Shown here: positions 21,442 to 54,947 of the stretch, piece after piece
Layout: every line of letters begins with the position of its first letter
Numbering within the stretch: the stretch's first letter is position 1
Origin: Mucidula mucida
Taxonomy: Eukaryota; Basidiomycota; Agaricomycetes; Agaricales; Physalacriaceae
Direction: 5' to 3'
Assembly: GCA_015501055.1 (NCBI GenBank)
Contig: JADNYV010000090.1
Coordinates: forward strand, 1-64,000
Length of the DNA stretch: 64,000 nucleotides
Notes under the pieces: model-generated
Databases searched by the model: none
Seen by the model: only the letters and a program-made list of their open reading frames with translations
What the model was told of the DNA's origin: nothing
Program-made: the position numbers and the translations under genes

Positions 21442-24400
21442 ATGGACTGGTCTCGCCTCTCTGCCGATGATCCCCGCGAATTCGTGGCACAGCAAATACT
21501 ACAGCTGTTATGGACCACCGATAGCCCGTGGAAGACCATTGATTCCGTCAAGCCTGATGTCGCTTTGATAGTGATAGATGTTTTACAAACTGTTCGTGTT
21601 TCTTCCTTCCCAGTTTGGTTTGCTTCTCATACCGGGATAGGAATTGGATGCTGGACCGTCCAATGAGCGATATCGGACGACATGCATGAAATGTCTGCGC
21701 GTTTTGGGAAAGCATCACGATATCGTACCGACTTCGTTCTTTTGCCGGAATGTGAGGCGTGACGGAGCCTTTCCTGTCTCGGGTGGAGGATTTGCGGTTA
21801 GTGCTGTTTGCTGTATTCAGATTCCGGCTGATAAATAGCGCTTTAGGATATTTGGAAAGGGACCATGGAGGAAAAACCCGTTTGTCTCAAGGTTTTGAGG
21901 CTCTTCTTAACGGGCAGCGCGAGAGAAGAACTGTTAAAGGTGCGCCTGTAGTGCGATTATCTGGGACAGACTGATCTTATCTACCCCAAGGATTTCTGTC
22001 ACGAAGCATTGGTCTGGAGGCAGCTTCGCCATCCGAATGTTCTCCCTTTTCTAGGAGTTACCCTCACTTTGTGCGCGCCTAGTTTCTGCTTGATATCGCC
22101 ATGGATGGAAAACGGGAACATAATATCATTTCTCCAGCGATATCCGTCGCACGACCGCCTAAAAGCAGTGCGTACTCCCCACAGTTTTGTCATAGATTAC
22201 CTGACACTGCTAGATCTGTGAAATCGCTCAAGGCATTCGGTACTTGCACGAGCTAGATCCCCAGATTGTCCATGGAGACATCAGAGGCGTACGCGGCTAC
22301 CATGACTATACACGGGTTGTGAAGCTTATATTATTCTAGGCGAACATTCTCGTCAACAACGAACTGCGCTGCTGTCTAGCGGACTTTGGTCTTAGCCTCG
22401 TCGCTGAATCCCAGACACCAGCTAGTTCCGCGATGGTACTGCGTGGCTCTATCCGGTGGCTTCCACCTGAGATGATGGATTATTCGCTCTTTGATCACTC
22501 ACGTGTCGCGGCGAAGGACATATACTCCTTCGGGTGCACCATTATCGAGGCACGTCGTCTATATCTTTCATCATGGGGCATACGTTTAATTCGTCGTAGA
22601 TATACACGGGAAAGGCTCCGTTTTGGCATATCAGAAGTGACGCGGCGCTCATTAATGAAGTATTAACTCTCAAGAACAAGCCGCCTCGACCATCGGCAGA
22701 CGAGCTTCCTTCGGATGAGCTGTGGGCATTGATTGAATCGTGCCTTTCTTCATCTCCAAAGGATCGCCCAACTGCGACCACCGTACTTGGACAGCTTCGG
22801 ATAATGAATGGATTCTGTTCGACATGTCCAGATGATTCACCTGGCCCTTACGTCTACCAGCGAGTGCTCGCTACCCCATCAGCGGATGCAGCTACACCAT
22901 CTGGACAAGTGCCAATGTCTTCGGCGGACCTCGTCATCATCCGGGTTGATAAACCCCTCGTCGGGAACAGCACGTCACGACGACCATCGCTGACGTTGAA
23001 CACAAGAAACCTTGTTCCCTCCAATAACTCCTCTCCGGACTCTTCCACGGCTTCGAGTACCTCTCATGGGCGTCTTTCGGATTCCACCAGCCGACTTCGA
23101 CCCAAGGGACCGCGTAGTCCTTCTACTGCCGGTGGAAATATATCACCCGACTCGGCTCAAAGTGAACATGGACCGACCCATACCAAGTTTGCGGTCACGC
23201 CACCTACTCCGATGGATAACATCGCGCCTCTCTTATCACCCGTCACACCTCTTTGCATCAAAAAGCGTGTCGACACTACACGTCTTTTGCCTCCCAAGAC
23301 ATCATCAAAGAACAGACAAGCCATCAACGGCCTGTTCAAAGCCTGGGCGAGCAAGCCGGGCGACGTCGTAGTCAAGAGTCTCCCAAAACCAGTGTTTCGT
23401 ACGCTCCTTTCTATTACTTTGTTATGCACTTGTGTTTATGTTTGTCAAAAGCTCCTTTCAAATGGGTACGAGGTGTTCCCATCGCGGTCGGCGCCTATAG
23501 CCAGATATCCTTTGCTTTGAACGCGGCCGTGGGCGAGGTCATGGTCGTCAAGCAGGTGGAAATACCCGCGAACAGGGAGCAGTCGCTGCATCATCGTGCG
23601 TCGCGCATGATCAAGCACATGTACGAGATGCTCAAAGACTTGAAATATCCAAATGTCGTGCGGTGCTTGGGTCTTGAGTTGAATACTTCCGGAGCGAGCT
23701 TGTCAGTCTTTCCATGTGCCATTCCTCATACTTTCTCTAACGCCTCTTAGATTTCTCGAATACGTTCCTGGAGCGACTATCCACGACCTCGTGAAGAAGC
23801 ACGGAACATTCGGCGATACCGAACTGACCAAGTTCTTCCTGGGACACGTCGTCGATGGCATTGCGTTTCTGCATTCCCAGGGTGTTATTCATAGGGTACA
23901 TGTCACCATGCTCCTCCGTCCCATTCCTTCTCTGATCCCATGCATAGGATCTTAAAGCCGAGAACGTGCTTGTCGAGGAGAATGGTCGATGCAAGATCAC
24001 ATGTTTTGGCGTCTCGAAGCGCATCGATGATTTGGGGGCGCGCACGAAGACACCGGTCCATGGGAGTGTGTTCTGGATGGCGCCCGAGGCGATGAGCCTG
24101 GAACGGCAGCATGGGGCGGGTGTCAAGGTCGATGTATGGAGTATTGGATGCATTGCGTGTGAGATGTGGGCGGGAATAGACTCGGAGCATGATCTGCCAG
24201 ACGTCGAGGTACTTTGGGACGTTTCAATTGCATTGCACCTTTCACTGATCTGACATCTGTAGCCTGAGGATTGGTATCAAGTCCTTCCTGCGGAGGGGAT
24301 TTCTGAATTGGCAGAGGATTTTGGCAAAAGATGCTTCGTCGTGTGAGTTGCTGGTCTGTCGGAGCTTGGTTTTCAGTGTTTTCATATCTCTTTTAGTGAT

Positions 24401-30241: not shown

Positions 30242-31151
30242 ATGTCCAACAAGCACCTGAGTGCGGTCATCACATTAATGCCGAACCCAAAGGCCGGTCC
30301 CTTGACAATAAGCCTTACAACTATGATGGGGACAAGACCAAGTACAAGAGCTGGTGGCGATTGATGTTCCCATACATCCGTGATAAGAAGAACAATATCA
30401 CATCTGACTCCGAAAGGATTGATGTTGTTCTCTCCTATATCCGAGGAGATCATGTCGATGCATGGGTCTAGAACTACTCGGACCAGAACTTCGACGAGGA
30501 GGAAGAGGAATGGACAGTCTCCTGGGCGCAGTTCAAGGAGCACTTGAAGGAGCAATTTATAGATTCCAACCTTGCGGGAGACACGCAAGACCAGATCAAG
30601 CGGTTGCACCAGGGGCAAGACACCGCCAAGATTTCTTCCAAAGTTGAGGTCCTGCTCACTCAGGCAGGATATTCAAAGGATAACACATTTGTCGTGCGGC
30701 TTCTCGAGACCAACGTCAACGAGAAGATCATTGATCAGATCTATGGCAGCCGAGACGGGTTGCCAGAGAAGTACAAGGATTGGAAGGCACAGATCATTCA
30801 GATCGATCAGCTGTGGAGAAGGCGGACGGCAAGCAAGAGGTCCGGCATGCAGTCCCGGCCCGTAGCCCCACAGGCGGCTACATTGAGAGCCAATCCTACG
30901 AACCCACCCCCGACGCCGATCACACGACGAGATGCCACCGGCGTTACCTATGGAGGAGCCGGCAGGCCAATGGACATCAACAACTCACGTCGAAGGGACT
31001 TTGCTTCAGCTGTGGCGAACACGGTCATGTCAGCAGGTTCTGTCCTAAGAAGGGTTGACCCCAGACGATTCGGGGTCTATGGACCGAAATGAATGACGAG
31101 GAGAAGAAGAAGTTGGCCGAAGAGTTGGGTTTTGCGAAGCTCCCGCAGTAG
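30242..31151 (+). pseudogene. gag: gag of element 1 (broken)
   Basis: Same gag as 50091-51019 of element 2: capsid-like region (EQFIDSNLAGDTQDQIKRLH, then LLTQAGYSKDN), then a CCHC zinc knuckle (CFSCGEHGHVSRFC, C-X2-C-X4-H-X4-C). A stop near 30467 (TAG in place of CAG) and frame changes near the start and near 30860-31060 break it. Gag would form the particle shell and bind the RNA. Confidence 0.85.
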
Positions 31152-31169
31152 ACGCAGTCCTGCCGGAGC
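31127..31169 (+). promoter_or_regulatory. -1 ribosomal frameshift signal, gag-pol, element 1
   Basis: Slippery heptamer G_GGT_TTT (31127-31133), five-base spacer, then a stem of nine pairs with one mismatch: GCTCCCGCAG (31139-31148) pairs with CTGCCGGAGC (31160-31169). The gag stop codon TAG (31149-31151) lies at the start of the loop. Pol is open in the -1 frame from the heptamer onward. Confidence 0.75.
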
Positions 31170-32513
31170 AGCCATCAAGGGAAGGGTCGTCAGATGCAGA
31201 ATTTATTTACAGTACGGGTACTGAAACATCTAAAATATCATCGACAACTTCACCAACAAAACCTGTGAAAGAAAGATTTGAGCCAAATACACCCGAGTGG
31301 ATCGCACAACGGCTAAGAGAGGATGAAGTGTCGAGAGCAGTGGGAATTTTGAGAGCATGGATGCCGGAGCGGAGAGAGAGAGAAGCGACGGAGGAGAAAG
31401 TGATGGCAATCAGAGCGTTGACAAAGGAAGCTGCGGTGGAAGTCGTAACGGAGTTAAAAAAGTCGAGGAAGTACATCCAGGGAACAAAGGGGCAGGACAT
31501 GAAACTCCGAGTAACCATAGAGAGCATACACACAGGCTCTGAATGGGAAACGAGTGCCCTTCTTAACAGCGGAGCAACGGGTTCTTGTGTTAATAAAGAA
31601 TTTGTTAAGAAGAACGGACTCCCAATCAAGGAGTTACCGGTCAAGCTCCCTGTCTACAATGCGGATGGAACCCTAAACGAGGGAGGGGTGATCGAGGGTT
31701 TTGTGGAGATCCAGATGAAGATTGGTGATCATGCCAAGAGGATCAAGTTGGCCGTCACCAATTTTAGTAAAACAAGCATCTTTCTGGGGCTAGATTGGTT
31801 ACAATATCACAATCCCACGATCAACTGGACCAAATCCACACTGACTTTTGATTGATGCCCAGACCGCTGCGGCTATCTACCCAAGTATGACTCGCCAGAA
31901 GATGAAGGAGAAGATGTAGAAGAGAAACTGGAGGAGGGAGAGCGGTTGTTTTGGATGGACTGGGACAACTATCACAAAAGTGGTGAAAAGCTGAGATCAC
32001 AACAGCCTTCATCCGCCGCTGCACCTTACATCGAGGAATTTTCCGATGTATTTAGCAAGGTGGACTTTGATAAGCTACCAAAGCGAAGACCCTGGGATCA
32101 TGCGATAGAACTCATGCCTGGTTCCAAACTGGTCAACTGCAAGGTCTATCCCCTTAGTCCATCCGAGCAGAAGGCATTGGACGAGTTCTTGGAGGAAAAC
32201 ATACGCACGGGACGCATACGACCATCAATCTCACTCATGGCGTCACCATTCTTCTTTGTCAAGAAGAAGGACAGAAGTCTTCGACCTGTGCAGGATTATC
32301 GGAAATTGAATGACATGACGATCAAAAACCGATACCCCTTACCGTTGATCCAAGAGCTTATTGACAAGCTGAAGGGAGCGAAGTGGTTCACAAAGATGGA
32401 TGTCCAATGGGGTTACAATAACATCCGGATCAAAGAAGGTGATGAGTGGAAAGCGGTGTTTAGAACAAACCGAGGCCTGTTTGAGCCCTCAGTCATGTTC
32501 TTTGGATACACAA
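31134..32513 (+). pseudogene. pol: pol fragment of element 1 (protease and partial RT)
   Basis: The -1 frame encodes a linker, then a retropepsin-like domain in which the catalytic DSGATG is NSGATG (31561-31581). An open frame runs on to the internal stop at 31854-31856 (TGA for CGA). The next part (31946-32513) is the start of the reverse transcriptase ([31 protein letters not shown]). It ends abruptly at FFGYTS, before the catalytic YLDD. Non-functional. Confidence 0.85.
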
Positions 32514-32628
32514 GTTGACCTAGCGTAGCTAAGTGTCATCGTCTTTTCTACTTATAACACTTATCAACACTTATTGACTTGGCCAAGTAGTGTAAGTAGC
32601 TCCGCCAAGTACGTGTTAGTTTGCTGAT
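32514..32628. other. Filler DNA at the element 1 deletion junction
   Basis: About 115 bp unrelated to the retroelement sits between truncated RT and truncated LTR. It contains the self-related strings ACTTGGCCAAGTAGTGTAAG and CTCCGCCAAGTAC, possibly a scrap of another repeat. Confidence 0.55.
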
Positions 32629-38461: not shown

Positions 38462-40556
38462 CTACGCAGTATTCACAGCACGCTAGGATGGTAAATCGTC
38501 CAAGAAGAAGTTCAATTCACGAAGGCGATACCTTGAAAGTACCATGATAGCGACTACGGGGGTGAAACACGCAGGCATCCGCATTGAGATTCTTCTTGAC
38601 TTCCAAACGAGGAGCGAAGGCTTCTGCCTTCGGGCTAAGACTGCTCTGTCTCTCGTCGAAATGGATTGAAGTAAATGGCGGAGCATCGGGAGAGAGTTTC
38701 TGCCCAATGACTGCGCTCGGTCGGCGGAAGACCGCAGCGTTCGGATTAAGACCTCCTGCGCGGGTAACATCTCCACGGGGTGCAAAGCCTCCGGCGCTAG
38801 GATTCAGAGGAACCTCTGGTATGGTGCTTATGGGCGGCACAAATACCTGAGCATCGGGATTCAGGCGCTTTGACTGGTTTCTACTCCCAGAAAAGGCGAA
38901 GACTCTAGCATTGGGATGAAGAGTGGTCTGATCTGTCTTCTCTTTGGAGGGTGGGGAATGCGGAGGCGTGGACACTGACTGCTCGGGGGATGAATCGACC
39001 ATGAGGGTCAGACTAAGATCGGAGTCCTCGGCGGAAGGAGGGGAATAAACGCTATCAGACTCTGAATCGTAGCCCAAATAGGTCGGTGTATACACGCAGG
39101 TAGCTGGATCTGGGTGCGCACATAAAGATGAAGAAGATTGCTCTTCCATGCGAAGAAGACGGTGTAGGATCCTGGTCGCAGTAGGACGATCCTTTGCATG
39201 CCATAACATACAATCTGTAACCAAACTCCACAGTGCGTCCAACGGAAAATTCTCAAGAGGCGGTCGTGGTGCTGGCTTCCCTTTATCTAAGAACAGGTTC
39301 GCGATGATGCAGCCATCGGATTTCAAATGTGAGAATGGCGGTCGTCCGGTATAAATCTAACAATTCTTGATTGAGAAACGTTTCACAACCGCTCAGCAAC
39401 CGTACCTCTAAGATGGTGCATCCAAATGAGTAGATGTCCCTTGCTAACAAATACTGCGGTTCGAATAACGAATCCTTCAACATCTCCGGAGGCATCCAGC
39501 GTACAGTGCCTTGGCGTCGCGTCGAACTGCCTGGTGACTGCGTTTCCGATGCGATCATGCTGATTCCAAAGTCAGCCAGGACGCAGCGCAGATCATCCGC
39601 TACGAGGATATTGGCCTAAGTAACGTGTAAGTGCGAATTATAACAGGAAGAGAGTAATTACTCCACGGATGTCGGCGTGTAACACTGGCGGGTCAAGTCC
39701 GTGTAGGTATTGGATTCCTTTCCCGATATCAAGAACCTACAGATGATGGGTCAACCAGCCGAAAGGGATCATAAAGAGACTGCACCGATTGAAAGCGATC
39801 ATGCTTAGGCTGTATTGAAAGGAAGTCCATGATATTACCATTTGACATCCATGGTGATACGAGATAGAAGCTTGGCTCTGGTGCAGTAATACAGACGCCG
39901 ATTAAAGGTAGGACATGCCGATGTCGTAGCTGCCTCCATAGAAGCGCTTCGTTATAGAACGACTTGATAATAAGTAAGTTACTTCACAGTTGATCTGAAC
40001 GCGTTGCCGACGCACCTTCAGAGTATCGTGCTTGTCCTGTACCCACATGAAGACGCGTAATATTTTCAGACAGACGTCCTTTCCAGTGCTGTCCCGCCTC
40101 CCTTTCCATATATCCTATAGACTCTAGTAAGCAGCCTGGTCCATTGTCTGTATGAAAGCTTACAGCGAATCCGCCCCCATTCACAGGCCTACTTGACGTT
40201 TGTCGAACGTCGCTACATAGAAACGATACCGGAAGAACGTTATGCGACTTTCCGAGGGCGCTCAGACATTTTATGCATGTAGATCGGTACGTTCCATCCG
40301 TCAAAGGTAAATCCAGTTCCTGGGTAGGATGATATTTATCAAGCACCCATAATCGGGGAAGGACTACCTCTTGTAAGATGTCCATAACCAGCTGGGCATT
40401 TTTAGTGCAGACAGATGCGATACTTCGCCATGGCGATTCAGCGAGCAACGCCAGCCGCACAAGAGATACCAAGGCATTTCCGTCGACGTCTTCGTGATCT
40501 ATGGAAAGACTAGACCAAGCGGTAGTCTCTTCTGTACTGCTCAGGAGTCTGCGCAT
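38462..40556 (-). CDS. TKL-type kinase with seven PAM2-like motifs
   Basis: Eight minus-strand exons, all phase 0: 40556-40368, 40319-40164, 40114-40016, 39962-39786, 39736-39662, 39615-39406, 39356-38532, 38482-38462; 583 residues. N-terminal region (1-110) like that of the 21.4 kb kinase. Kinase domain: GGGFADIWKG (about 111-120), VCLK Lys (132), HAD (227-229) instead of HRD, DFG (247-249), then MPPEM and ARDIYSFGCT. The tail after about 375 is low-complexity and ends in a regular array: LHPNARVFAF (448), LNPDAQVFVP (467), LNPSAGGFAP (486), LNPNAAVFRR (505), LSPDAPPFTS (523), LSPKAEAFAP (542), LNADACVFHP (559). These fit the PAM2 consensus LNxxAxxFxP that binds the MLLE domain of poly(A)-binding protein. 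Five exon lengths equal or nearly equal those of the 21.4 kb kinase. Inferred role: a kinase recruited to mRNPs. Confidence 0.85.
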
Positions 40557-50090: not shown

Positions 50091-51019
50091 ATGTCCAACG
50101 AAGCACCCAAAACCGCTCCTCACACACCCGCTCATCACGCCGATGTCAAAACCAAAGGCCGATCCCTTGTCAACAAGCCTTACGGCTATAACGGAGACAA
50201 GTCCAAGTACAAGAGCTGGTGGCGATCGATGTTCACATACATCCGTGACAAGAAGAACAACCTCACATCGGACTCCGAAAGGATCAATGTTGTTCTCTCC
50301 TATATCCGAGGAGATCACGTAGATGCATGGGTCCAGAACTACTCAGACCAGAACTTCAACGAGGAAGAAGAGGAATGGACAGTCTCTTGGACGGAGTTCA
50401 AGGAGCACTTGAAGGAGCGATTTATAGATTCCAACCTTGCGGGAGACGCGCAAGACCAGATCAAGCAATTGCGCCAGGGGCAAGACACCACTTAAGATTT
50501 CTTCCAGAAGTTCGAGGTTCTGCTCACTCAGGCAGGATACTCAAAGGATGACACATTTGTTGTGCGACTTCTCAAGACCAATGTCAACGAGAAGATCATC
50601 GACCAGATCTATGGCAGCCGAGACGGGTTGCCAGAGAAGTACAAGGATTGGAAGGCACAGATCATTCAGATCGATCAGCTGTGGAGAAGGCGGGCGGCGA
50701 GCAAGAGGTCCGGCATGCAGTCCCGGCCCCAAGCTCCGCAGATGGCTACATCAAGAGCCAATCCTACAAACCACCCCCGACGCCGATCACACGACGAGAT
50801 GCCACCGGTGTTACCTATGGAGGAGCCGGCAGGCCGATGGACATCGACAATGCACATCGAAGGGGACTCTGCTTCAGCTGTGGCAAACATGGCCACGTTA
50901 GCAGGTTCTGTCCGAAGAAGGGTCGACCCCAGACGATTCGGGGTCTATGGACCGAAATGAATGACGAGGAGAAGAAGAAGCTGGCCGAAGAGTTGGGTTT
51001 TGCAAAGCTCCCGCAGTAG
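50091..51019 (+). pseudogene. gag: gag of element 2 (two frame changes)
   Basis: Start MSNEAPKTAPHTPAHHAD, capsid-like region through HLKERFIDSNLAGDAQDQI. An inserted T near 50494 (CACTTAAG where element 1 has GCCAAG) then creates a stop. The reading continues in a second frame (LLKTNVNEKIIDQIYGSRDG) and, after a further change near 50770, in a third with the CCHC knuckle CFSCGKHGHVSRFC (about 50870-50912) to the stop at 51017. Particle shell and RNA-binding protein of the element. Confidence 0.85.
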
Positions 51020-51037
51020 ACGCAGTCCTGCCGGAGC
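50995..51037 (+). promoter_or_regulatory. -1 ribosomal frameshift signal, gag-pol, element 2
   Basis: Slippery G_GGT_TTT (50995-51001) in the gag frame, spacer GCAAA, then GCTCCCGCAG (51007-51016) pairing with CTGCCGGAGC (51028-51037). The gag stop TAG (51017-51019) is in the 11-base loop. The -1 frame is open into protease. Only the spacer differs from element 1. Confidence 0.8.
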
Positions 51038-53144
51038 AGTCATCAAGGAAAGGGTCGTCAGATGCAGAATCTATTTACAGTACGGGTACTGAAACATCTA
51101 AAATATCATCGACGACTTTACCACCAAAACCTGCGAAAGAAAGATTTGAGCCAAATACGCCCGAGTGGATTGCACAACGGCTAAGAGAGGATGACGTGTT
51201 GAGAGCAGTGGGAATTTTGAGAGCATGGATGCCGGAGCGGAGAGAGAGAGAAGCGACGGAGGAGAAGGTGATGGCGATCAGAGCGTTGACAAAGGAAGCT
51301 GCGGTGGAAGTTGTGACAGAGTTGAAAAAGTCGAGGAAGTACATCCGGGGAACAAAGGGGCAGGACATGAAACTCCGAGTAACCATAGAGAGCGTACACA
51401 CAGGCTCTGAATGGGAAACGAGTGCCCTTCTTGACAGCGGAGCAACGGGTTCTTGCGTCAATAAAGAATTCGTCGAGAAGAACGGGCTCCCGATCAAGGA
51501 GTTACCGGTCAAGCTCCCTGTCTACAATGCGGATGGAACCCTAAACAAGGGAGGAGCAATCGAAGGTTTTGTGGAGGTCCGGATGAAGATCGGTGATCAT
51601 GCAGAAAAGATCGAGTTGGCCGTCACCAATCTTGGCAAAACAAGCATCTTTTGGGGCTAGATTGGTTACGATATCACAACCCCACGATCAACTGGACGGA
51701 ATCCACGTTGACTTTTGATCGATGCCCAGACCGTTGCGGTTACCTACCCGAGTATAACTCGCCGGAAGACGAAGGAGAAGATGTAGAAGAAAAGCTGGAA
51801 GAGGGAGAGCGTTGTTCTGGATGGACTGGGACAACTATCGCAAAAGCGGTGAAAAGCTGAGATCACAACAGCCTTCATCTGCTGCTGCACCTTACATTGA
51901 GGAATTTTCCGATGTATTCAGCAAGGCGGACTTTGATAAGTTACCGGAGCGAAGACCCTGGGATCACGCGATAGAACTCACGCCTGGTTCCAAACCGGTT
52001 GACTGCAAGGTCTATCCCCTTAGTCCATCCGAGCAGAAGGCATTAGACGAGTTCTTGGAGGAAAAATACGCACGGGACGCATACGGCCATCAATCTCACC
52101 CATGGCGTCACCATTCTTCTTTGTCAAGAAGAAGGACGGAGCCTTCGGCCAGTACAGGATTATCGGAAGTTGAACGACATGACAATCAAGAACCGATACC
52201 CCTTGCCGTTGATCAGAGCTTATCGACAAGCTGAAGGGAGCAAAGGTTTCACAAAGATGGATGTCCGATGGGGTTACAATAACATCCGGATCAAAGATGG
52301 TGATGAGTGGAAAGCGGCGTTTAGAACAAATGAGGCTGTTCGAGCCATTAGTAATGTTCTTCGGACTCACAAACTCGCCGGCAACGTTCCAATCGTTCAT
52401 GAATCACATCTTGAAGGAGTTGATTGACGCGGACATGTTATAGTTTACCTAGATGATATACTATCTTTACGAACACTCTCGGGAGCATAGACAGATTGTA
52501 CGAAAGGTATTGAGATATTACGAGTAAATAAGCTGTATTTAAAACCCGAGAAATGTAGTTTTGAGGCACAGACTGTAGATTACTTAGGAGTTATTGTTGG
52601 AGGAGGAGAAGTGAAGATGGATCCGGCAAAAGTGGCCGTAGTGAAGGAATGGAAGGAGCCGACGAAGAAGAAGGAAGTGCAGTCATTCCTGGGATTCTGC
52701 AACTTCTACCGACGTTTCATTCGGGGATTTGCGGGAGTAGCGAAGCCGTTGACATCGCTAACCGGGAAGGGCGAGTGGGTTTGGGGCATGGAGCAGCATG
52801 AGGCGTTTGAGGAGTTGAAACGGAGGATGACGGAAGAACCCGTTCTGATCGTACCACGCGACGACGGCAAGTTTCGAGTTGAGGCGGACTCCTCGAACTA
52901 TGCAACGGGGCGTTCTTTCCCAGTTTGTTGATGGAAAATGGAGACCAGTAGCTTTCCGATCTCGCGCGCTGAACAAGTGGAGCGCAATTATGAGATCTAC
53001 GACAAAGAGATGATGGCTATTATGGACTCGATTGACGACTGGGGCAATATCTCCTAGGCGCTAAGGAGACAGTGGAGGTTTTTACCGATCATCAAAACCT
53101 TCAGTACTTAGGAAACCGCAGAAGTTGAACCGGAGGCAGGCGCG
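51004..53144 (+). pseudogene. pol: pol part 1 of element 2: protease, RT, RNase H (indels)
   Basis: The protease has an intact LLDSGATGS (about 51429-51455). A deletion at 51652 breaks the frame just before GLDWLRYHNPTINW. RT is recognisable by [51 protein letters not shown] and the catalytic VYLDDIL (about 52443-52465). At least six small indels between 51820 and 52500 scatter it over three frames. RNase H is recognisable by DPAKVAVVKEWKEPTKKKEV (RT/RH linker, 52611-), FRVEADSSNYATG and DHQNLQYL, and also has frame breaks near 52910-53130. Inactive as it stands. Confidence 0.85.
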
Positions 53145-54947
53145 ATGGGTTACGGAGTTGGCGAGTATGATATACAGATGATTCACAAGCCGGGCAAGAC
53201 AATGGGGAAAGCTGATGCCTTGTCAAGGATGACAGGCCTTGAGAAGGGGGAAAAAGATAACGAAAACGTTGTTTTACTAAAACCGGAGTTTTTTATATCA
53301 CAAATTCAATTTTCTTTACATACAGTAGCTACACCGGAGGACGAATTACTTAACAAAATCAAACAAAGAAAAGGAAACAAGGACAGATACGTACAAAAAG
53401 CATTAGAAAACAAAGAAAAAGGATGGGAAGAGAAGGAAAACGGACTTATTATATGGAAAGATCGTATTTACATACCGAAGGACAAGGAATTGCGGGGAAA
53501 AGTTATTGGAATGCATCATGATGCACAGCTTGCAGGGCATCCGGGACGGTACAAGACTCTCGAGTTGATCACACGCACCTATTGGTGGCCAGGAATTAGC
53601 CGAGACGTCCGCGAATACGTGGAAGGGTGTCAAAAATGCCAAGTTACAAAGTCACATCGCACAAAACCGGCTGCACCCCTCCATCCTATAGACGTACCAA
53701 GCGAACCATGGGAGAAAGTTGGGACGGACATGATCGGCGAGTTGCCGGAGTCGGGAGGATACAATGCGATCAGCACGTTTGTGGACCATTTCACAAAGCG
53801 GTTACGCATTATACCAACACACACCACCCTGACGTCAGAAGGCATGGCTCGTATTTACCGCGATCGAATCTTCCCCATACATGGATTGCCGCGACAGATG
53901 ATACACGATCGAGGTCCGCAATACCACTCGCGTTTCATGAAGGAGTTATACCGGCTGTTGGGCATTGAAGGGAACTTCACGACGGCGTACCATCCACAGG
54001 CAAATGGGCAGACGGAACGGCTGAACCAAGAGATAGAACATTTCTTACGGTTATTCGTCAACTACCATCAGAACGACTGGCACGAATGGTTACCCTCTGC
54101 TGAATTCGTTTACAACGATCGAGTTCACTCGGCGACCAAAGTCACTCCGTTCTTCGCAGACATGGGCAGACATCCCTACAAAGGCACCGCTCCGAAAACG
54201 GCATCGAGAAATGAGACTGCGCAGGAGTTTGCCGACGGCATGAGGAAGACATGGGACGAAGTGGGGTCAGCATTGAAGATGGCAAAAGAAGACATGAAAC
54301 GGTTTTATGACAGGAAGCGGACAGAGGCAGTAGAGTACAAGGAAGGCGACAAAGTATGGCTGGAGGGGACGAATCTCAGCACGGACCGACCAATGAAGAA
54401 GCTCGATGACAAACGCTTCGGGCCGTTCAAAGTGATCAAGAAAGTCGGGACGAGCTCTTACAAGCTCCAGATTCCTCACACGTGGAAAAGCATTCATCCC
54501 GTGTTCAATGAGGCTCTGTTGACGCCTTACCACGAGCCGCAATTTCCGACGCAACCCCGAGACACGCGTCCACCACCTGTGCTGGAAGGAGCCGAACCGG
54601 AATGGGAGGTTGAGAAAGTGGTGAATTCCCGGAAGTACCGCGGGGGTTTTCAATACAAGGTTCACTGGAAGGGTTATGGCACACACGAACAGACATGGGA
54701 ACCGGCATGCAATCTCAAGAATGCCGACGAAGCCATTCGCGATTTCCACCAGCAGTACCCGAAAAGCCGAAGCCACCTGCGCTTGCTCGCATCGAAGTCC
54801 CCATGTCGCAATTTCCATCACACCTATTCCGACCCATGCCACCGCCTGACACCGAACCTATTGATGTCACGCTACCCTCTGCGGCCCTCATGGAGCAAAT
54901 CTGGCGCAGAATGGAACTTGCGCCTTAAGGAGGGGGTGATGTTATGA
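53145..54947 (+). CDS. pol: pol part 2 of element 2: integrase with chromodomain
   Basis: Open frame of 600 codons from the end of RNase H (EYDIQMIHKPGKTMGKADAL) through integrase. Zinc-binding HHCC region: MHHDAQLAGHPGRYK, then GCQKCQ. Catalytic triad: Asp195 (GTDMIG), Asp255 (HDRGPQ), Glu291 (QTERLNQE), spaced D-X59-D-X35-E. Chromodomain at about 486-537 (EWEVEKVVNSRKYRGG, YKVHWKGYGTHEQTWEP), the module by which chromoviruses target modified histones. After QQYP the frame probably slips: the alternative frame (PALARIEVPMSQFPSH...) ends at 54928 and looks more natural than the residues here. The first codon is not a true start; the product would be cut from a polyprotein. Confidence 0.9.
   Translation: MGYGVGEYDIQMIHKPGKTMGKADALSRMTGLEKGEKDNENVVLLKPEFFISQIQFSLHTVATPEDELLNKIKQRKGNKDRYVQKALENKEKGWEEKENGLIIWKDRIYIPKDKELRGKVIGMHHDAQLAGHPGRYKTLELITRTYWWPGISRDVREYVEGCQKCQVTKSHRTKPAAPLHPIDVPSEPWEKVGTDMIGELPESGGYNAISTFVDHFTKRLRIIPTHTTLTSEGMARIYRDRIFPIHGLPRQMIHDRGPQYHSRFMKELYRLLGIEGNFTTAYHPQANGQTERLNQEIEHFLRLFVNYHQNDWHEWLPSAEFVYNDRVHSATKVTPFFADMGRHPYKGTAPKTASRNETAQEFADGMRKTWDEVGSALKMAKEDMKRFYDRKRTEAVEYKEGDKVWLEGTNLSTDRPMKKLDDKRFGPFKVIKKVGTSSYKLQIPHTWKSIHPVFNEALLTPYHEPQFPTQPRDTRPPPVLEGAEPEWEVEKVVNSRKYRGGFQYKVHWKGYGTHEQTWEPACNLKNADEAIRDFHQQYPKSRSHLRLLASKSPCRNFHHTYSDPCHRLTPNLLMSRYPLRPSWSKSGAEWNLRLKEGVML
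54927..54939 (+). other. Polypurine tract of element 2
   Basis: AAGGAGGGGGTGA directly before the 3' LTR: the usual primer for plus-strand DNA synthesis. Confidence 0.8.

Follow-up and report, generated by a model that had tools for sequence, protein, structure and literature searches.

In the 59.9 Mb genome of the agaric Mucidula mucida (Physalacriaceae), contig C938 carries on its minus strand a kinase gene that ends in a tail repeating one short motif. The locus raises the question whether these repeats are PAM2 motifs and what a kinase might do with several of them. It was examined within a window, the whole stretch of DNA that was analysed, of 64,000 nucleotides. The gene was spliced from six exons and has the following features.

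40556-38517, minus strand: kinase gene, 597 amino acids, six exons, stop included
40556-40164, 40114-40016, 39962-39786, 39736-39662, 39615-39406, 39356-38517, minus strand: the exons of the kinase gene
40164..40556, minus strand: exon 1, N-terminal helical region, with helices within residues 7-105 of the predicted structure
39156..40184, minus strand: TKL-type protein kinase domain, residues 125-385, across introns (PF07714, E 1.3e-36)
38922..39155, minus strand: Ser/Pro-rich linker that joins the kinase domain to the array, with pLDDT mostly <50 from residue 408
38559..38921, minus strand: array of seven PAM2-like motifs, from the first L of motif 1 to the tenth residue of motif 7

The five introns are all of the GT..AG type and 46-53 nt long. 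The last exon, 39356-38517 (-), encodes the final part of the kinase domain together with the entire tail. The gene model is equal in length and start to the public M. mucida protein P0001, which is the allelic copy, and the database entry closest to the kinase is a 'kinase-like domain-containing protein' of Mucidula mucida. An artefact of the assembly or of the gene model is unlikely, as the array stands in a single open frame of 279 codons and is found again on contig C71, whose allelic copy agrees with that of C938 at 97.5% over 3.9 kb. Near the array copy on C71, at C71:57070, lies a piece resembling the second kinase of the window. This other TKL kinase, a member of the same family, is encoded at 21442-23747 (+) and corresponds to the public protein P0005 of 652 residues, which has no PAM2 motifs; its final ~100 residues resemble, by eye, the start of another kinase-type domain, and Pfam gives one kinase stretch. 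Open frames similar to retrotransposon gag/polymerase were recognised by eye at 30472-32515 and 50965-54944 (+), so that the kinase gene seems to be placed in a repeat-rich stretch.

In agreement with an earlier note on this DNA, the protein is, judged by its sequence, a TKL-type kinase with the catalytic residues in place. It matches the Pfam family PK_Tyr_Ser-Thr, and in an alignment of 74 homologues, picked from the 120 listed by the whole-protein search described below, K148 and D263-F264-G265 never vary, and conservation is at least 90% for D245 and N250; the Mucidula kinase has all of these residues. HAD replaces HRD, as in the consensus of the same alignment. The predicted structure (pTM 0.67, mean pLDDT 69.9, 74 sequences in the alignment) consists of the N-terminal helical region, for which exon 1 matched no Pfam family at the curated cut-off, and a kinase fold that is confident except for the loop 274-279. 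The best solved matches in Foldseek were TNNI3K, followed by RIPK2 and tyrosine kinases, which places the nearest folds among TKL/TK kinases.

Among the 74 homologues, single members carry a bromodomain, a homeodomain, PBD, PH_10, RRM, DUF6699 or other domains. In ten chosen relatives the extra domain follows the kinase domain in eight, an RRM precedes it in one, and P0005 has none; nine of the ten had been selected for listed extra domains, that of P0052 is under the curated cut-off, and some accessory domains of annotated relatives may be gene-fusion errors. The domain pattern suggests that this kinase family swaps its targeting module, with PAM2 as one case. P0057 of Rhodocollybia butyracea, with an RRM at residues 140-204 ahead of the kinase domain at 447-706, is possibly another RNA-linked kinase. 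Related kinase pieces in the M. mucida genome gave 88 matches, a count that includes the exons of this gene and of its allele.

The motifs of the tail lie in a region of predicted disorder (pLDDT <50, residues 459-595) and were scored against the Pfam PAM2 profile (PF07145, cut-off 20 bits) as 24-residue pieces, each cut out around one motif.

38892..38921, minus strand: motif 1, LHPNARVFAF, alone without a Pfam hit
38835..38864, minus strand: motif 2, LNPDAQVFVP, alone 23.1 bits, over the cut-off
38778..38807, minus strand: motif 3, LNPSAGGFAP, alone without a Pfam hit
38721..38750, minus strand: motif 4, LNPNAAVFRR, alone 12.7 bits, under the cut-off
38667..38696, minus strand: motif 5, LSPDAPPFTS, alone 13.7 bits, under the cut-off
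38610..38639, minus strand: motif 6, LSPKAEAFAP, alone 12.6 bits, under the cut-off
38559..38588, minus strand: motif 7, LNADACVFHP, alone without a PAM2 hit

The earlier note had placed the array within 38532..38945, where the motifs indeed lie (38921-38559). Its residue range of 448-568 has to be replaced, the motif starts being residues 464, 483, 502, 521, 539, 558 and 575 of the 597-residue model. The period of 18-19 residues that it gave holds for five intervals, with 17 residues for the last (19, 19, 19, 18, 19, 17). It had also read LNPxAxxFxP seven times; there are seven motifs in one open frame, with the complete string in two of them. Leu, Ala and Phe are present in all seven, Pro at position 3 in six, Asn at position 2 in four, and FxP likewise in four, the proline being absent from motifs 1, 4 and 5. 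LNPxAxxFxP is right as the consensus and not for each copy.

The identification as PAM2 is borne out by the profile for the tail as a whole, with 45.1 bits (E 4.8e-12) for the last exon and 37.3 bits for the whole protein. Motif by motif the result is mixed, with one of seven over the cut-off, three under it and three without a PAM2 hit. Hence a poor profile score, which the earlier note had named as grounds for giving up the PAM2 reading, was not what the tail returned. Against PAM2 motifs speaks that the Glu before Phe of the published consensus, xxLNxxAxEFxP with Leu and Phe as key residues (PMC9249222), is found in none of the seven.

The composition of the tail was ruled out as the source of the array by shuffling. 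In 200,000 shuffles of the 206-residue tail, the strict pattern L[NSH][PA]xAxxF occurred 0.0027 times on average and at most once, and the loose pattern LxxxAxxF never more than three times, compared with seven observed for each; the strict pattern was picked after the motifs had been seen, and the Pfam score is independent of that pick. As a background, the 65,698 residues of the 118 other listed homologues match the strict pattern once and the loose one 35 times. A sequence search of the PDB with the last exon gave chance matches only (E 0.89 and worse).

To judge the origin of the motifs, the seven units were compared with each other without gaps. Nucleotide identity was 0.59 in the eight motif codons and 0.27, close to chance, in the seven linker codons; the amino-acid identities were 0.57 and 0.10. 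The third codon positions of the conserved Leu, Ala and Phe differ in 0.76, 0.67 and 0.57 of the unit pairs, which is near random codon use; the seven units therefore did not arise by recent copying of a single DNA segment. TRF reported no tandem repeat. Recent tandem duplication as the full explanation is excluded by the silent TRF, the chance-level linkers and the differing codons, and the units appear to be either old duplicates that retained Leu, Ala and Phe, or motifs that converged. That these three residues never vary is in part a consequence of picking the motifs by them; their retention despite varied codons nevertheless agrees with the earlier claim that they are kept, as do two such motifs in the probable orthologue described below. 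Protein-level selection on the motifs is the simplest reading.

The alleles C938 and C71 differ in 14 codons in total, small numbers for all of the following counts. In the 56 motif codons there is no amino-acid change and one silent change, while the 81 linker and end codons (stop included) have four amino-acid and no silent changes and the segment before the array has one and none. In the N-terminal and kinase part, amino-acid changes exceed silent ones (six versus two), and thus there is no sign of strong constraint on the enzyme, a point against the anchored kinase preferred below.

A whole-protein search, which scored the 7964 candidates sharing most words, gave 165 matches at E<=1e-10, and the best 120 of the 165 were examined. 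In this set, at least two motifs were found in P0001, the allele, and in P0002 of Hymenopellis radicata only; a single strict match stands isolated in P0119, and the remaining 117 lack any. On the basis of these best 120 of 165 matches, an array common to the whole kinase family is ruled out. At least 100 residues follow the kinase domain in 54 of the 120, and the other 66, with a short tail, could hardly show an array, so the absence is informative for about half. The search of homologues for the same tail, which the earlier note had proposed, thus yielded a second carrier with two motifs and, among the best 120 of 165 and apart from the allele, no further one.

The motifs of P0002, LNPYAKTFSP and LNPDAKVFSP, are 18 residues apart near its C-terminus. 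When its tail was shuffled, two strict matches occurred in none of 200,000 shuffles and two loose matches in 57. Its PAM2 score of 17.7 bits is under the cut-off, and this, like the number of two motifs instead of seven, counts against the PAM2 reading. P0002 was the top-scoring non-self match among the matches listed by the whole-protein search. A quick tree of 39 rows left the placement of P0001 unresolved; in a careful tree of 17 rows P0002 is sister to P0001, though support is weak (67/78), within a well supported group of seven (98/98). BLAST with the kinase part gave P0002 as the best match of P0001, and P0007, then P0004, then P0001 as the best matches of P0002. P0002 is thus a probable, though weakly supported, orthologue of the Mucidula kinase. 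It keeps Leu and Phe in both motifs, so that the loss of these residues in orthologues, another finding that the earlier note would have held against PAM2 identity, was not observed. The array holds up as an observation, is retained in the protein sequence and has a partial counterpart in a related genus.

When the tail of P0002 was aligned locally, with gaps, to that of the allelic copy, the best alignment set its two motifs against motifs 1-2 of Mucidula. We do not adopt this correspondence, as in scores of single units motif 6 is the best fit for the first Hymenopellis motif, and motifs 2, 3 and 7 fit the second about equally well. A search of the protein database with tail residues 430-575, a query that omits motif 7 but for its first residue, returned from 411 candidates the allelic copy only and not P0002, and a second tail search (79 candidates) returned the query itself only. 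Both need shared five-residue words, and distant arrays could escape them.

A partner for the motifs was looked for in the same genome, and the MLLE domain of Pab1 expected by the earlier note is present. One gene with an MLLE domain was detected, on contig C160, as two exon pieces (E 8.2e-18 and 0.0025). Because RRM-type sequence lies upstream of it, as judged by eye, and its translation contains KITGMLLE, we take it to be Pab1. Among PDB entries, the MLLE domains of PABP1 come closest to its own, which was joined from two frames. MLLE domains of the Rrm4 type score weakly by profile even in Ustilago (PMC4466420), and the genome search could therefore miss one.

The PAM2 profile matched the genome 12 times. 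Four matches are over the cut-off, namely this locus, its allele, C827 and C1, the last helicase-like by eye. Matches under the cut-off include C79, with an RRM-like frame (by eye), and C304, where the unspliced stretch C304:13500-21500 has three PAM2-like motifs, followed on the same strand by a downstream frame with a C-terminal DGWWQ, similar to Upa2. Contigs C804 and C827 encode two closely alike proteins of unassigned kind, each ending in one PAM2-like motif (LNPDAEPFIPGG / LNPNAEPFIPGG). The strict DNA pattern LNPxAxxF, which would miss arrays of variant motifs, occurs at 66 places in the genome and at 42 in a reversed control, hence most single matches are chance. Close clusters of it are found at this locus and its allele only (three each), with two wider-spaced on C304. 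Judged from these sequences, a PAM2-Pab1 system appears to exist in M. mucida.

We consider it likely that the gene encodes a TKL-type kinase with a disordered C-terminal tail of PAM2-type short linear motifs, anchored to poly(A) mRNPs by several predicted PAM2-MLLE contacts. Binding of PAM2 to the MLLE domain of Pab1 is weak, with a KD of 14.6 uM for Upa1 and a stated range of 0.2-40 uM (PMC9249222). Several motifs on a single disordered tail could bind several Pab1 molecules of the same poly(A) tail, and because a poly(A) tail has several copies of Pab1, avidity would keep the kinase bound to poly(A) mRNPs through the array. The anchored kinase might then bring phosphorylation to Pab1-associated proteins. 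We infer the PAM2-MLLE binding, the simultaneous occupancy of the sites, the substrates and the biological role of the kinase. Caution is advised by the finding that loss of PAM2 was tolerated in vivo in Upa1 (PMC4466420) and Upa2 (PMC9249222).

A further-reaching proposal, which we put forward tentatively and with more doubt than belief, is that the array lets the kinase read the occupancy of poly(A) tails and that the kinase is one case of a mushroom kinase family repeatedly gaining different targeting modules. Each PAM2 site would be too weak singly, the kinase would be held only on mRNAs with several Pab1 per tail, and phosphorylation would thereby be coupled to tail length.

Binding of the tail to Pab1 may also serve titration and not tethering. 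The tail would then occupy several MLLE domains and displace eRF3, PAN3, Upa2-type and other PAM2 proteins, with the kinase domain regulating the tail, for example by phosphorylating Ser-rich linkers. Paip2 displaces PAM2 proteins by occupying MLLE domains. Titration rests on the same motif evidence as anchoring, and Ser beside several motifs, the Ser/Pro-rich segment ahead of the array (both by eye) and the other PAM2 matches in the genome are in line with it; it depends, however, on the abundance of the kinase protein, and most motifs are weaker than canonical by profile, which makes it improbable in our view. The weakness of single motifs could instead mark a relic, in which an ancestral pair of PAM2 motifs gave rise to further copies that are now mostly in decay, with motif 2 and perhaps a few more still binding. 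That motif 2 alone passes Pfam singly, that Hymenopellis has only two motifs and that the FxP proline is gone from motifs 1, 4 and 5 would fit such decay. Yet Leu, Ala and Phe, the residues by which the motifs were picked, stand in seven of seven despite near-random third positions and linkers, and the motif codons, in small numbers, are without amino-acid change between the alleles, so that we regard a relic as unlikely; with one working motif it would amount to a weak, reduced form of the anchored kinase.

The variety of accessory domains in the family allows another proposal, namely that the array is an integrated bait, copying a common interaction module to sense interference with Pab1 in the manner of integrated-decoy immune receptors, and set in a fast-evolving kinase family with many different accessory domains. 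It draws on the relatives with bromodomain, homeodomain, SH3, PBD or PH-like domains after the kinase domain or an RRM before it, on the long branch of P0001 and on the 88 related kinase matches in the genome, own and allelic exons counted. This analysis gave no support for an immune role of the family, however, the accessory domains of annotated proteins can be gene-fusion errors, and nine of the ten checked proteins had been chosen for such domains; we hold a bait to be quite improbable. Finally, the motifs could bind a partner other than Pab1, such as an MLLE domain of the Rrm4 type or a non-MLLE protein. Rrm4-type MLLE domains exist in fungi and are weak in profiles (PMC4466420, PMC9249222), so Pfam could miss one, but the published PAM2L motifs for Rrm4 are acidic with FxxP spacing (PMC9249222), compared with FxP in four of the seven motifs here, and the sole MLLE gene found is that of Pab1. 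Such a partner is very unlikely. The probabilities behind these gradings overlap and are not intended to sum to one.

If the anchored kinase is the correct reading, signalling would have a direct route to poly(A) mRNPs through a multi-site link to Pab1 that belongs to the kinase itself. The two versus seven PAM2 sites of related genera would offer a natural comparison for avidity, and the gene would point to changes of the tail as a way in which mushroom TKL kinases, an expanded and little-studied group, acquire new targets.

The earlier note knew of no described kinase like this. Judged by titles and abstract openings, with subscription papers mostly outside the scope, the literature searched describes no kinase that both is catalytically intact and bears a PAM2 array, and two known cases qualify the claim: the PAN3 pseudokinase, which has a PAM2 motif (PMC6547884), and chains annotated with both Ataxin-2 and RIO2, CAMKK-like or MAPKAPK5 kinase domains (PMC12898128). 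These chimaeras come from single animal species and were considered by their authors to be probably read-through and possibly artefact, and a PAM2 array was not seen in the accessible part of that report (PMC12898128). Closer in kinase group are the expanded TKL kinases of Laccaria bicolor in a survey of fungal kinomes (PMC2838846), the main text of which has no occurrence of PAM2.

Among PAM2 proteins, Upa1 of Ustilago maydis is similar in combining PAM2 with related PAM2L motifs (PMC9249222), but it is an endosomal adaptor with FYVE, ankyrin and RING domains (PMC4466420) and not a kinase. Upa2 of the same fungus shares the presence of several PAM2 motifs, four in number, which bind the MLLE domain of Pab1 (PMC9249222, PMC12852828). 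It is, in contrast, a dimerising scaffold with a C-terminal GWW and not a kinase (PMC9249222), whereas the Mucidula protein has a kinase domain and ends in KVSPS without GWW; the Upa2-like gene of M. mucida is the separate one on C304. Upa2 and PAN3 are the nearest known systems, and it is PAN3 that combines a kinase fold and PAM2 in one protein: a deadenylase subunit that its PAM2 motif brings to poly(A) RNPs by way of Pab1's C-terminal domain (PMC6547884). PAN3 has PAM2 and a zinc finger at its N-terminus, a pseudokinase domain and a partner nuclease. The Mucidula kinase has no Pfam zinc finger, and its seven motifs are C-terminal, after a kinase domain that, by sequence, keeps the catalytic residues in place.
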